Source of the DNA: a virus
Virus record (IMG/VR): IMGVR_UViG_3300007541_000199
Location: 1-25,074 of that record
Direction: 5' to 3' (one strand)
DNA: 25,074 bases
Below, piece by piece: positions 4,741 through 23,763 of this stretch. The number at the start of each line of letters is the position of its first letter. The stretch's first letter is position 1. The notes under the pieces were generated by a model. It did not search any database. It was not told the origin of the DNA and saw nothing but the letters and a program-made list of their open reading frames with translations. Position numbers and translations under genes: made by a program.

Positions 4741-5667
4741 TCAGGCGCCTTCCATAAAGAGCAGTTTGCTACGCAGAGCATCAGGACCCATGCCCTGAAG
4801 ATAACGCCAAGCGTTTTCCGGAGAGCGGTTCATCACTTCCGAGAAAGCTTCCCACTGATTTTGGGGATTAACACCTTGGACGCTGCCGCCTGCGTTTGCA
4901 GGGGGAGCAGGCATGTCATAGGAGGGCTGATAAGCCTGGGGCTGACCCTGGGCAACGGGCTCATCAATGTCCACGGGGACCACTTCGGTGAAGAAGCGAT
5001 CAGTGTACTCAGCAAGCTGGTCGGGGTTAGTCAGGATAGTTTCCATAGCACCCGAACGGGAAGCTAAGGCATCCATACGCTGAGCTTGATCGATCAACAG
5101 ATCTTCGAGAGCACAGGCATACTGATTGAGAATGCCAGGGGCTTCGATACCGAAGTGCTCAACTACCTCGGCGCTTACGTTGCTTAGGGCTTGATTGCTG
5201 CTGGCCGTAGAAGCCGGCGAGGAAGTTTGGGTCTGTGAGGCGTTGGTATACGAGGTCGGCGCTACCTGCTGTTCCTGGTAAGCCCATGGCTGGGCCTGTA
5301 AAGTCGGATTGGGCTGTTGAATAGCCTGAGGTTGAGTCGCCAGGTAAGGCGACTGTTGAACCTGGCTGGGGGACGGTTGCTGTAAGTTCGTTTGCGCCAG
5401 CACCCGCTCCAAGGTCCCCATAGCCGCCTCCCAGGGATTGCTGGGGGAGGATTGAGACGTTGACGGGTTGAACTGGGGATTGATAGAAGGGGCCGAAGCC
5501 GGTTGTACCTGCGACGGCGGTTGGGCTGTAGGTACCGAAGCTACCGCCGGGGTAGCTGTTTGCGCCACCCATTGCGGGTAGGCGGTTGAGCCCTGGTCCG
5601 AGGATACCGCCGGGGCTACCGCCGGGGAGACCGGGCTCGGGATCGAAGCTTGGATCTGCTGGCTCAT
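4741..5667 (-). CDS. Scaffold-like head assembly protein (308 aa, or 226 aa from an internal start)
   Basis: Position between portal and capsid genes, together with composition, points to the scaffold that guides procapsid assembly. Residues 1-163 are Gln/Pro/Ser/Ala-rich and probably disordered. A structured, acidic helical part follows (about 164-235, beginning VSAEVVEHFGIEAP), then a short linker and a C-terminal helical tip (about 268-305), the part that in other phages contacts the capsid protein. The first 509 bases overlap the portal gene in another frame. The annotated ATG has no good ribosome binding site, whereas the ATG of Met83 (5421) has GGGAGG five bases upstream and would give 226 residues and a 263-base overlap. 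That GGGAGG also encodes Trp-Glu, so it may be chance. A terminator follows the stop. Confidence 0.65.
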   Translation of the reverse strand: MSQQIQASIPSPVSPAVAPAVSSDQGSTAYPQWVAQTATPAVASVPTAQPPSQVQPASAPSINPQFNPSTSQSSPSNPWEAAMGTLERVLAQTNLQQPSPSQVQQSPYLATQPQAIQQPNPTLQAQPWAYQEQQVAPTSYTNASQTQTSSPASTASSNQALSNVSAEVVEHFGIEAPGILNQYACALEDLLIDQAQRMDALASRSGAMETILTNPDQLAEYTDRFFTEVVPVDIDEPVAQGQPQAYQPSYDMPAPPANAGGSVQGVNPQNQWEAFSEVMNRSPENAWRYLQGMGPDALRSKLLFMEGA

Positions 5668-7396
5668 AGCTACCCGAGTAAGTTAGTTCTTCCGCGAGGT
5701 GGTCGAATGTCCTGTAAAGGAGCGGAGTGATATTCAGTCTAGGGTCAGCCGCAAGTGGCTGATTAGGCGCAAGTGGATGCGGCGACTGCAACATCTGCTG
5801 TAATAATATCAGAAATTGTTGCATCGCTGCTTGAGTTTGTTGCACCATACGGAAAGGAAAACCTTTCAGCATTTCTGCACGCTCAGAGTCAGTCTTTTCA
5901 GGAAAAAGAAACTTCAGAGCCTCGATACTATCGACGCCCAGTTCCTGTAAGTTCCGGACAACGATAGATTTTTGGTTTACATCGTACGCGGTGTCCTCAT
6001 AAACATCGCCCTGGAATCTGTAGGCAACTTCCCGATCACCATCCTCAGGCAAACCAATAACGCCACGGGGGACTGCGTTGTTCTGGATTGCTGTCTGAAT
6101 CTGAACGTCGACTTTTTGATTGAACTTGGCTAGAGCTACTTGGTACTTTTCAAGAGCCTCAACGCTTACTTCGGTAGGTTCTTTAGGCGGCTTTAAACCA
6201 GAGGTAGCGATGAAGGACTCCCGGAAGATAGTTTCCTGGTGATAAATCATCATCTCCAGGAGACGACAGAAACCATAGGTAAGGAAACTTTTGTTCTTAC
6301 GAAGAGCCGTGGCCTGAGCCCGACCCATCAGACCTTTAATTTCTGTTGCAGTAGCGCCCGCAGAGATAGAGATCTCGTCAACTCCGCCTAAAGCGGTACG
6401 AATTTCCTCTCGAAGCAGGAGAACGTACCGGTTCATATCCCCGTTAACGGGGTCCGGAGTCATATAACCGACACGATCCGAAGGCTCGACGTTTGCGATA
6501 ATCCTCGGTACGCGTAGGCCACCGCCCATCGCAGCTCCGAATGGCTCGCTAACACGGGTCGAAGGAGTGTCAACGCCAGCAAAACCGCTTTGACTACTAA
6601 TAGTCGGACGGAAGCTCGAGCCGGCATCGGAAGCCTCCACCAGATCACTCCGGGGACGCGAGCTGATCAGCGTGGGGTTACCAAAGAATTCGATATTTTT
6701 TGAAATATTTCGAGTCAGCTGATCGTGTAAAACGATCTGCTCCATAAAGGGATCGAATTCACCCTCTCCTTCCGTACCACTTGCGTTGGGTTTATTAAGA
6801 ACCTCAACAGCAGGAACAAAACCAAGTGTATTTGGCCTCTTTTTGGCAGGAGTTAAAACAGCACCAGGCTCTAGATCGAAGCTGAGCTCAGTATCTGTTT
6901 CTACTTCGCTGATTTCTTCGGCAGTAATAGCCAGTCGGACATAACGCTTATTCTGTCCGTAGCTGTTGCTGGGTAAACCTAAATTAGAGTTCTTAACTTT
7001 GTAGCTATAGAGAATGATGACTTCTTCAACGTTTCCGTTGATGTCGTGATAGACCCGATACTGATCTTTGTTAAAGAAGTAAATTTGGTACTTAAGCTTT
7101 GGATCCGGGCGGAAGTAGAACAGACCGCAACCGTCAATTAAAAAGTTACGAATAATCGCTGGAAAGCGAATATCTAACTTATTAAGAGCGATAACGTCAT
7201 CAAGAAAACGTCCACGGCTCTTGAACGTGTCCTGATCACAATAAAAAGTCAGACCCTTCTTAATCATCAGAAGGGTCATCTGCTGAAGATGGCTGAGTAC
7301 AACCATCGTGGCAGCAGAGTGCCCACGGTCTTGAGTCCGCGCCGCTTCTAAGATCTCAGCAAAACGGGTTCTGGTTTCAGAATTAGCGACGCTCAT
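5159..7396 (-). CDS. Portal protein (745 aa)
   Basis: The portal is the dodecameric ring at the head vertex through which DNA enters and leaves. The size, the mixed alpha/beta N-terminal half, the central stretch around GNPTLISS and the long helices in the middle (about 350-420 and 520-560) fit the portal families of tailed phages, and the neighbours (scaffold, capsid, TerL) agree. The last 170 residues, from about 576, are a Gly/Pro/Ser-rich, probably disordered tail ending in a basic KQRKRRGS. This tail is unusual and coincides exactly with the region that also encodes the N-terminus of the scaffold. The start ATG at 7396 has no strong Shine-Dalgarno sequence but no better start lies nearby. 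Confidence 0.8.
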   Translation of the reverse strand: MSVANSETRTRFAEILEAARTQDRGHSAATMVVLSHLQQMTLLMIKKGLTFYCDQDTFKSRGRFLDDVIALNKLDIRFPAIIRNFLIDGCGLFYFRPDPKLKYQIYFFNKDQYRVYHDINGNVEEVIILYSYKVKNSNLGLPSNSYGQNKRYVRLAITAEEISEVETDTELSFDLEPGAVLTPAKKRPNTLGFVPAVEVLNKPNASGTEGEGEFDPFMEQIVLHDQLTRNISKNIEFFGNPTLISSRPRSDLVEASDAGSSFRPTISSQSGFAGVDTPSTRVSEPFGAAMGGGLRVPRIIANVEPSDRVGYMTPDPVNGDMNRYVLLLREEIRTALGGVDEISISAGATATEIKGLMGRAQATALRKNKSFLTYGFCRLLEMMIYHQETIFRESFIATSGLKPPKEPTEVSVEALEKYQVALAKFNQKVDVQIQTAIQNNAVPRGVIGLPEDGDREVAYRFQGDVYEDTAYDVNQKSIVVRNLQELGVDSIEALKFLFPEKTDSERAEMLKGFPFRMVQQTQAAMQQFLILLQQMLQSPHPLAPNQPLAADPRLNITPLLYRTFDHLAEELTYSGSYEPADPSFDPEPGLPGGSPGGILGPGLNRLPAMGGANSYPGGSFGTYSPTAVAGTTGFGPFYQSPVQPVNVSILPQQSLGGGYGDLGAGAGANELTATVPQPGSTVALPGDSTSGYSTAQSDFTGPAMGLPGTAGSADLVYQRLTDPNFLAGFYGQQQSSPKQRKRRGS

Positions 7397-18992: not shown

Positions 18993-19078
18993 TGCTGCAG
19001 GCGGGACTCGAACCCGCAAGGGAGGAAACTCCCGACGCATTTTAAGTGCGATCCGTAGACCAATTCCGGCACTGCAGC
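18993..19078 (-). tRNA. tRNA-Leu (anticodon UAA)
   Basis: On the minus strand an 86-base class II tRNA can be folded: acceptor GCTGCAG/CTGCAGC (7 bp), D arm CCG/CGG with a GGTCTA-type loop, anticodon loop CTTAAAA with TAA at 19042-19044, a long variable arm GGGAG/CTCCC, and a T arm GCGGG/CCCGC with loop TTCGAGT. The long variable arm and UAA anticodon both point to leucine. The outermost anticodon-stem position is a T-T mismatch. The discriminator is A and CCA is not encoded. It reads UUA and UUG codons and may help the phage where the host decodes these poorly. Confidence 0.93.
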
Positions 19079-22559: not shown

Positions 22560-22618
22560 AACGGATGTGGCTTACTGCCCTAAGTTTAGAACTAAAGCCT
22601 CAAACAGCAACCACACCG

Positions 22619-22768
22619 ATGTCAAAGGGGTACAAGAGAACAATTGTTGTTATCTGTGCTTTCTGGGCACTAGGTACTGTGATGCTTTATATCGAAAATC
22701 AGATCAAGCGCCTCCTAAGCGTCCGTAAAAAGGAGACTGACGAGCGCGTTGACGAACCCGCTCCATAA
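22619..22768 (+). CDS. Tiny single-pass membrane protein (49 aa)
   Basis: From the ATG at 22619 the protein is MSKGYKRTIVVICAFWALGT, continuing the hydrophobic helix to about residue 24, then a basic/acidic tail (KRLLSVRKKETDERVDEPAP). Basic residues before the helix and a charged tail after it are normal for a small inner-membrane protein. The frame opens 18 codons earlier, but that part does not look like protein. The end overlaps a convergent minus-strand gene by 65 bases. There is no Shine-Dalgarno sequence, so confidence is moderate. Confidence 0.45.
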   Translation: MSKGYKRTIVVICAFWALGTVMLYIENQIKRLLSVRKKETDERVDEPAP

Positions 22769-22988
22769 GCGCGTCGTAACCAGCAGGCTTCGGAAGAGGA
22801 TTGATCTGATCCATACGGGTATCGATCATGTCCTGGATATTCTCACGGGAATCGAAATAACCAGGAGAACCTGCAATATCGATTCGACCGCCGACTTCGG
22901 GCACAATATTTCCGGAGATATACCGCTCTAAAAACCCAAGGGCCAAACCGTTATCAAGGGGCTCAGCGTAGGAAACAGCTTCGTACAC
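22704..22988 (-). CDS. Hypothetical protein (94 aa)
   Basis: The GTG-initiated protein has a helical N-terminus (LDNGLALGFLERYISGNIVP), a Gly/Asp/Ser-rich middle, then a basic helix (ALMERVRQRARQSPFYGRLGG) at the end. It resembles in style the 165-residue and the partial Ala-rich proteins further right, as if all belong to one module. A TATAAT lies upstream on this strand (23019-23024), inside a CTGACT/AGTCAG inverted repeat, but without a good -35, so a promoter there is only possible. Confidence 0.55.
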   Translation of the reverse strand: MYEAVSYAEPLDNGLALGFLERYISGNIVPEVGGRIDIAGSPGYFDSRENIQDMIDTRMDQINPLPKPAGYDALMERVRQRARQSPFYGRLGGA

Positions 22989-23053
22989 AGTTTTTAGAGT
23001 AACTATCTCTGACTATTAATTATAAGTCAGTCGTACGAAGACAAAAGAGGTCG

Positions 23054-23125
23054 AGGGTCGTGCCGGAATCGAACCGACTTTCTACGTGCGTTGTCCGCCT
23101 GTCCTTACCAATGGACTACCGACCC
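23054..23125 (-). tRNA. tRNA-like element with degenerate anticodon arm (possible pseudo-tRNA)
   Basis: On the minus strand the acceptor (GGGTCG/CGACCC), the D arm (GTCC/GGAC with loop ATTGGTAA) and the T arm (GTCGG/CCGGC with loop TTCGATT) are standard, and total length is 72. The anticodon arm is not: GGCGG faces ACGTA, with only two Watson-Crick pairs and one wobble, and the loop ACAACGC has C where U33 is expected. Taken literally the anticodon would be AAC. G7 also faces A. It may be a decayed tRNA or a tRNA mimic; an amino acid should not be assigned. Confidence 0.55.
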
Positions 23126-23183
23126 GGATAACATAAAAAAGATTATATTAGCTGGCACAACCGCGCAAAACCCAGTCATACCA

Positions 23184-23236
23184 AGGGATCTGAGGTATTG
23201 CTAAAAAACTCAAGCCAGGCAATACCTCAGATTCTT
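23184..23236. other. Strong intergenic stem-loop
   Basis: ATCTGAGGTATTGC (23188-23201) and GCAATACCTCAGAT (23219-23232) form a perfect 14-bp stem with a 17-base loop. On the plus-strand RNA the stem extends four more positions with two G-U pairs, to 23184 and 23236; the minus-strand RNA cannot extend in the same way. It lies 3-4 bases past the stop of the DUF4278 gene. There is no T run directly after it on either strand, so it is not a standard terminator. Confidence 0.6.
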
Positions 23237-23239
23237 CAC

Positions 23240-23401
23240 TCAACGCAGCGTGGTGTTCTCGCGCGAGTAACGAGGATCAACCTCTACCCCACGGTAAACA
23301 CACCGGTGGCTTGCCTCACGGGTCGTTTTTTGCCACTCGAGCATTTCCTTCTGGTGCTCAACAGTGTCATACTGTTTGCCGCGATACGTTAAAACAGTCA
23401 T
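23240..23401 (-). CDS. DUF4278-like small protein (53 aa)
   Basis: The frame from MTVLTYRGKQYDTVEH to the end contains two copies of the short YRG motif: LTYRGKQYD at the start and CVYRGVEVD near residues 35-43. This is the hallmark of DUF4278, a small domain common in cyanobacteria and known from their phages; its biochemical role is unknown. I chose the Met at 23401 because the domain starts there; 25 further in-frame upstream codons look non-coding. The gene is followed by the strong stem-loop at 23184-23236. This is the best host clue in the window. Confidence 0.7.
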   Translation of the reverse strand: MTVLTYRGKQYDTVEHQKEMLEWQKTTREASHRCVYRGVEVDPRYSRENTTLR

Positions 23402-23532
23402 GGGGAGTCTGTAACTACCCCTATTGTAGGGATTGGTAGCGGTTGATACTGTATTACTGCTATACAGAACACACATTATTATTTAAATCCTGACAAAAGC
23501 TCTAGACTTTAGTTGTACCCTGCAGTCCTCCC

Positions 23533-23763
23533 GTGGCAAGGGAGTGGAATACGCCTGTCCGCGCTCCGTGGAACGGCATGATTAAAGCATCACTGGATGC
23601 GGTAGATCGCCATAACGACCACTACCTACGAACAAATAACTATAAACATCTTGTAGCTGCGCACTACCTGAGGCAATACGTCAGCTACGTAAAAGATTTA
23701 ATCCTTGAGGTTGAGTCGATTAACAACATTAAGGAGCCTGGAGCGGGCCAAACACATCCCTGA
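23533..23763 (+). CDS. Small helical hypothetical protein (76 aa; 61 aa from a later start)
   Basis: From GTG at 23533, or from the ATG at 23578 (MIKASLDAVDRHNDHYLRTN), the protein is a helical hairpin with conserved-looking His, Asn and Leu positions (HLVAAHYLRQYVSYVKDLIL). Small phage proteins with a similar pattern are common and uncharacterised. The later start has GGA nearby and contains the whole helical part, so the first 15 residues are doubtful. Its 3' end overlaps a convergent minus-strand gene by 35 bases. No clear promoter is seen in 23402-23532, which contains two short inverted repeats (CTGTAT/ATACAG and CCCTA/TAGGG). Confidence 0.6.
   Translation: MAREWNTPVRAPWNGMIKASLDAVDRHNDHYLRTNNYKHLVAAHYLRQYVSYVKDLILEVESINNIKEPGAGQTHP

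Follow-up and report, generated by a model that had tools for sequence, protein, structure and literature searches.

Cloverleaf RNAs that have left decoding behind are known outside phages. The mascRNA, which comes from MALAT1, is described in the excerpted text of PMC9976931 as a small free RNA with a tRNA-like cloverleaf that lacks a conserved anticodon loop, is matured by tRNA enzymes, is not active in aminoacylation and acts by protein binding. The RNA analysed here resembles it in the cloverleaf and the missing anticodon loop; mascRNA is mammalian, no GAYAA arm is mentioned for it in that text, and the two are likened by description, not by sequence (PMC9976931). It shows that an anticodon-less cloverleaf can work through a protein. 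A second point of comparison is boxB of phage P22, whose GACAA pentaloop, according to the portion of PMC12550061 that deals with it, folds in a GNRA-like manner and loops out its C, which contacts the N peptide. The likeness is limited to the letters of the loop: boxB has the P22 N peptide as its partner, and the present element is compared with it by the loop alone. Phage tRNAs (RF00005) share with the element the acceptor, D and T arms, the length and the location in arrays. In contrast to them, the element has no anticodon arm of 5 bp and 7 nt, its discriminator is variable, and many of its copies go unmatched in some of the Rfam searches. Finally, abiF RNA (RF03085), the partner of AbiF-type (HEPN) abortive-infection proteins, is a small phage RNA of the same arrays that lies immediately 5′ of the element at a few loci; it is 37 nt long, differs in sequence and fold, and is thus a neighbour and not a relative.

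The window, that is, the whole stretch of 25,074 nt analysed here (IMG/VR record IMGVR_UViG_3300007541_000199), contains one tRNA-shaped element at 23054–23125 on the minus strand, which confirms the location and the strand given in the preliminary description. ARAGORN calls it tRNA-Leu(caa) at 23053–23125 (minus strand), and the Rfam tRNA model matches it with 33.8 bits at 23054–23125 (minus strand) when a stretch of 1.2 kb is searched. The Rfam search of the whole window does not list it and reports solely the tRNA-Leu at 18993–19078. The latter is an ordinary tRNA-Leu(taa) on the minus strand (54.1 bits) and the only other gene called by ARAGORN in the window. With position 1 of the element at 23125 and the discriminator U at 23054, the acceptor stem is formed by positions 1–6 (23120–23125) and positions 66–71 of the 71-nt core (23055–23060), the D arm occupies positions 10–25 (23101–23116) and the T arm, with the loop UUCGAUU, positions 48–64 (23062–23078). 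The preliminary description rightly called these arms nearly perfect: the acceptor stem forms 6 of 7 pairs, the D stem 4 of 4 and the T stem 5 of 5 (one of them G-U), and the GG/UUC elbow between the D and T arms is present. Read in the tRNA register, its further observations also hold, namely that the canonical anticodon stem (27–31/39–43) pairs at three of five positions (one G-U), that position 33 is C and that G7 (23119) faces A. Upstream of the element, a perfect TATAAT hexamer at 23142–23147 (minus strand), 17–22 nt before position 1, is by its letters a possible −10 box; a sigma-70 scan of 22600–23600 found no promoter-like pair. A perfect 13-bp inverted repeat at 23189–23231, about 64 nt upstream on the strand of the element, is possibly a terminator, although it is missing from the terminators listed by the scan. 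In the lineage of the window, pairing between leader and trailer seems, judged by eye, to extend beyond the acceptor stem.

The region that had been described as a broken anticodon arm turned out to have a conserved fold of its own. At 23086–23099 (minus strand), positions 27–30 pair with 36–38 and 40, leaving A39 bulged, and enclose a GACAA pentaloop at positions 31–35 (23091–23095). In an alignment of 85 distinct sequences (A2), the proposed structure is paired in 99.3% of the cells, with 99.4% in the acceptor stem (two-sided changes in five of six pairs), 99.1% in the D helix and 99.8% in the T arm (two-sided changes in four of five pairs). The replacement arm, consisting of a 4-bp stem, the bulged A and a GAYAA pentaloop, is paired in 98.8% of the cells and shows two-sided changes at all four pairs, whereas the canonical anticodon stem is paired in 41.4% and an alternative arm, suggested by folding S-PM2-type copies singly, in 60.3%. 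RNAalifold, without being supplied with a structure, recovers three of the arm's four pairs. Because some of the search patterns fixed letters of the stem, the count was repeated on 32 distinct sequences in which the stem was free in the pattern, and the arm was paired in 126 of 128 cells (98.4%) versus 72 of 160 (45.0%) for the canonical stem. Single-element folding of six copies speaks in part against the arm, since the minimum-energy structures of S-PM2, S-RIM32 and contig L168 lack it. The minimum-energy fold of the window element combines six pairs in the acceptor stem and the D and T arms with a GCG-GACAA-CGC hairpin, and so already contains three of the replacement-arm pairs. Folded alone, the 72-nt element reaches −26.9 kcal/mol, which is better than chance (z = −2.55, with 2 of 200 shuffles equally good), and a 141-nt stretch including its flanks gives z = −0.32.

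The invariance of some positions is partly a matter of construction, because the patterns used for collecting the sequences fix letters: two patterns, one for each stem type, do so in parts of the D arm, replacement arm and GACAA loop, a third with the D arm open fixes the loop, A39 and the T loop, and A39 is fixed in all three. Among the 85 aligned sequences, 41 match the first stem-type pattern, 11 the second and 33 neither, although 31 of these 33 fit a similar regular expression for the D stem. The claim about the loop rests on the isolates found by blastn and on a scan in which position 33 was required not to be C. Six of the seven isolates carry GACAA, and S-SZBM1 carries GATAA. The scan, which kept the same D and T arms and left positions 31, 32, 34 and 35 open, retrieved 30 IMG/VR contigs in all; 15 of them are the element, all 15 with GATAA, and the other 15 have ordinary anticodons according to ARAGORN, 10 being labelled tRNA-Glu. 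A census restricted to GANAA loops, run on loci of which most had been selected for GACAA and which include duplicates, counted GACAA 182 times and GATAA 17 times. The restriction to pyrimidines at position 33 would suit a looped-out base. Taken together, the sequence comparison strongly supports the fold of the element and the action of selection on it. The earlier argument that the gene is not decaying stands, and so does the point that the change is limited to the decoding part; this part is not damaged, as had been thought, and has instead been replaced.

The comparison with homologues proposed in the preliminary description showed that relatives keep the same structure. Unannotated homologues are present in seven isolated cyanophages, with no annotated feature beneath any of the matches. 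Six carriers are Kyanoviridae (S-PM2, S-RIM8, S-RIM32, S-CREM1, S-SZBM1 and DSL-LC03) and the seventh, S-EIV1, is unrelated to them; the carriers are viruses of ocean and lake cyanobacteria. A blastn search with the window element retrieved S-CREM1, S-RIM32, DSL-LC03, S-PM2 and S-RIM8, the S-PM2 copy added S-SZBM1, and S-EIV1 was matched by a copy taken from a contig of IMG/VR. The paper on S-CREM1 counts 24 tRNAs and four other RNAs, and its excerpted text makes no mention of the element (PMC9964418). Pattern scans of IMG/VR identified at least 119 contigs for one stem type, 20 for the other and, with the D arm open, at least 120 that overlap with both sets; these counts are lower bounds that are possibly redundant, and contig L092 is apparently S-RIM32 itself. 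A covariance model (R1) built without S-SZBM1 and S-EIV1 scored them at 88.8 and 59.0 bits; the window element, which belongs to the training set, scored 92.1 bits. Each of the seven isolates contains a single match of at least 59 bits, that is, one copy per genome. The next-best matches reach at most 40.9 bits, and the two examined are ordinary tRNAs. In 10 other cyanophages, the best score of R1 was 34.5 bits, within the range of ordinary tRNAs, and the four best matches are indeed ordinary tRNAs, so the RNA is not general among cyanophages. A pattern scan of 84,980 species genomes found none, with a pattern that fixes GACAA and the spacing of the D arm and would miss variants. When R1 was run over 386 cyanobacterial genomes, with E values up to 1e-8 admitted and, among the entries listed, 12 candidates in each genome scored, it gave one match, which was rejected as an ordinary tRNA-Val. 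A blastn match in a 595-kb megaphage was likewise discarded as an ordinary tRNA-Ile, and the first IMG/VR pattern yielded 12 matches whose flanks, as printed, were without tRNA context. Searching the whole window at the nucleotide level against phages gave no match. None of the papers listed in searches of an open-access library deals with the RNA, which may still have been published.

At least two unrelated phage lineages carry the RNA, because the marker proteins of its carriers split into two kinds. The portal-like protein of the window (5159–7396, minus strand) matches, among annotated phages, only that of S-EIV1 (47%), and a portal of this type occurs in 11 of 18 records that carry mostly lone elements. 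The other seven have neither this portal nor the T4-type capsid protein gp23 and are fragments or further lineages. Gp23 is found in 4 of 22 records, namely S-PM2 and three long contigs, one of them apparently S-RIM32, and in none of the 11 portal-bearing records, so that the two never occur together. The window itself looks like a separate branch of the portal lineage, since its portal is 45–47% identical to those of the 11 relatives found, S-EIV1 included. A tblastn search of the window ORFs against 26 loci mostly found the element itself again and otherwise gave matches only in L161, L192 and L193; the L192 and L193 matches are over 3 kb from the element.

Most copies of the element reside in tRNA arrays. 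A tRNA on the same strand lies within 1 kb at 159 of 183 places, and 24 places, that of the window included, show none, being counted as alone when a radius of 1 kb, or the stretch fetched where this ended earlier, contained no tRNA. The whole record of S-EIV1 has zero Rfam tRNA matches; in the same search, 12 of 14 records hold one to five, some of which are the element. The arrays also contain other small RNAs. AbiF RNA was detected in 15 of 48 element-bearing records, 14 times over the cut-off, and examples of the abiF type are found at L180:3037–3073, L201:2635–2671 and L002:1462–1498. A scan of 183 element loci with the abiF core motif gave 39 matches, of which 35 end 12–17 nt before a tRNA (30) or the element (5); three of the remainder, in contigs that are almost identical, stand over 5 kb away from the element and look like chance matches, and one is at the edge of its locus. 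This spacing suggests that the 3′ end of phage abiF-type RNAs is made by RNase P. Another RNA, of about 90 nt and three helices, precedes the element in 46 of 182 loci, with its end 5–6 nt away. Its alignment (A3; L026:559–647, L024:210–298 and 32 other distinct sequences) shows covariation of its own, 13 of the 24 pairs having two-sided changes, and the one locus submitted to Rfam gave no match at E up to 1. Judging by the spacing of these two RNAs, small RNAs often stand directly before a tRNA-shaped unit, and the element is able to be that unit. Several side observations concern the same arrays. Further tRNA-like folds with unusual middles lie directly downstream of the element in S-EIV1 (L200:3069–3200, as folding of this flank suggests) and at L162:6378–6452 (minus strand; 20.4 bits to the Rfam tRNA model), and in phage S-CBS4 (L428:1531–1640) a tRNA-like fold in which ARAGORN calls no tRNA follows an abiF match below the cut-off (34.3 bits). 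Gaps between tRNAs in L017, L019, L023, L060, L071 and others contain several more small hairpin RNAs that recur; they include the GGAAAUGUCC type and GAGUCGG...CCGACUC and look like separate families.

An element with a tRNA body in a tRNA array could be a true tRNA, unusual but still in use for decoding, or one that is decaying. Besides the location of most copies, the ARAGORN call of tRNA-Leu(caa) on the window points in this direction, as do the scores over the Rfam tRNA cut-off of 29 bits reached by the window element and, in the 14-record search, by six elements at 31.1–40.8 bits, which count against a non-decoding reading. Scores of this kind are expected of a tRNA body. No element passed the cut-off among 11 loci searched with the tRNA model, that of S-EIV1 is without a tRNA match even at E 1, and no Rfam family other than tRNA was over its cut-off at the element in the searches run. 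The ARAGORN check suggested earlier thus returns a leucine label at the window element, but the labels are inconsistent within the family: over 183 places in 182 loci they are Leu(caa) 93 times, His(atg) 31, none 27, undefined (???) 27, Cys(aca) four and Arg(acg) once, and no anticodon identity is constant across the orthologues. The discriminator varies too (A 99 times, U 65, C 17 and G 2), and 6 of 183 places encode CCA. Moreover, the arm is selected for a different fold, in which no 5-bp stem closes a 7-nt loop with U33; position 33 sits inside GAYAA and nothing of a 7-nt anticodon loop is left. Decay is opposed by the covariation of the arm together with the identity of the element, which is 0.88–0.92 versus 0.70–0.86 for neighbouring tRNAs and at least equals that of the neighbour in seven of seven groups, values that are inflated by the way the loci were selected. 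A decoding or decaying tRNA is therefore scarcely credible, the least probable of the readings considered. Since the end that would read the code has been swapped for a preserved hairpin, the element probably does not read codons and has another job during infection. One such job could be that of a structure acting in cis in the mRNA of a neighbouring gene, as a regulator or stability element. It would agree with the position of the element between small ORFs in the window and in S-EIV1, but the conserved tRNA core, the placement in tRNA arrays and the finding of a shared protein near the element in a single locus (L161; tblastn, 26 loci) make it very improbable.

The reading that we favour, to which we give an even chance of being right, is that of a non-decoding tRNA-shaped RNA that is processed like a tRNA and whose GAYAA hairpin binds a protein, as a decoy that serves the phage. 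The element would be transcribed alone or within a tRNA array and cut out like a tRNA by the RNase P and the 3′ processing of the host. Its working part would be the hairpin on the distal tip of the L, which would bind a protein that also recognises the tRNA body, for example a host defence factor that acts on tRNA or is controlled by RNA. By occupying this protein, the element would act as a decoy or an antitoxin-like RNA, to the benefit of the phage. That phage tRNAs blunt tRNA-targeting defences has been proposed in one study (PMC10264068) and shown in another (PMC11555353). An alternative role would be that of punctuation, in which the RNase P cut at the 5′ end of the element gives the small RNAs upstream a clean 3′ end. 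This best accounts for the abiF core directly before the element at five loci (L161, L165, L180, L192 and S-EIV1, four of them with the window-type portal), a slot taken in other phages by a genuine tRNA, and it agrees with the close spacing of the 90-nt RNA. However, an Rfam abiF match is present in two of the five loci only (L165 and L180), the others being recognised by the core motif; no abiF match was found near the window element; and tRNAs nearby in the arrays could serve as well. The preservation of the hairpin and its loop, which RNase P should not need, is better explained by the decoy. Punctuation, the main rival, is unlikely, and the two roles may both be true. A third possibility, which we consider improbable, is a mimic derived from tRNA-Glu that is still bound by GluRS or glutamyl-tRNA reductase and blocks or feeds tetrapyrrole synthesis. 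The combination of U11-A24, U13·G22 and a 4-nt variable loop is found in 8 of 15 tRNA-Glu versus 7 of 742 other phage tRNAs, and in Synechococcus WH7803 in its one tRNA-Glu versus none of 40 others; its features are determinants of GluRS in E. coli as far as the excerpted text of PMC9976931 goes. In the element, U11-A24 is present in 85 of 85 sequences and U13·G22 in 67 of 85, with letters of the D arm partly fixed by the search patterns. On the other hand, the window has C13-G22, the first pair and the discriminator vary, the anticodon, a strong determinant in E. coli, is gone, and the similarity of the D arm as a whole does not single out Glu. From the sequence, a tRNA-Glu parent of the element is plausible. 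In order of likelihood, the decoy precedes the RNase P signal and this the GluRS or GluTR mimic. A mimic of tRNA, either a processing signal or a decoy, had already been put forward in the preliminary description and is still the best class of explanation; the processing signal has gained concrete support in one lineage, because an abiF-like RNA adjoins the element in a few loci. A broader picture, doubtful for now, is that the arrays are libraries of anti-host RNAs, in which abiF RNA, the 90-nt RNA and the tRNA mimic lie amid true tRNAs, each a decoy or antitoxin freed by RNase P, and in which the mimic, with its GAYAA hairpin at the end of a tRNA body, would inactivate a tRNA-recognising defence protein of the host.

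In conclusion, if the non-decoding reading is true, the element represents a widespread family of phage RNAs that is present, unannotated in their records, in S-PM2 and six other isolates. It would also mean that RNAs with the shape of a tRNA but no role in translation evolve in phages, and the numbers of 'tRNAs' counted in phage genomes would need to be read again. Being a single-copy gene, and having the GAYAA loop as its one obvious candidate for an active site, the element offers a handle on the question of why phages keep tRNA arrays, and in S-EIV1, which is without any Rfam tRNA gene, its function could be tested free of the background of ordinary phage tRNAs.
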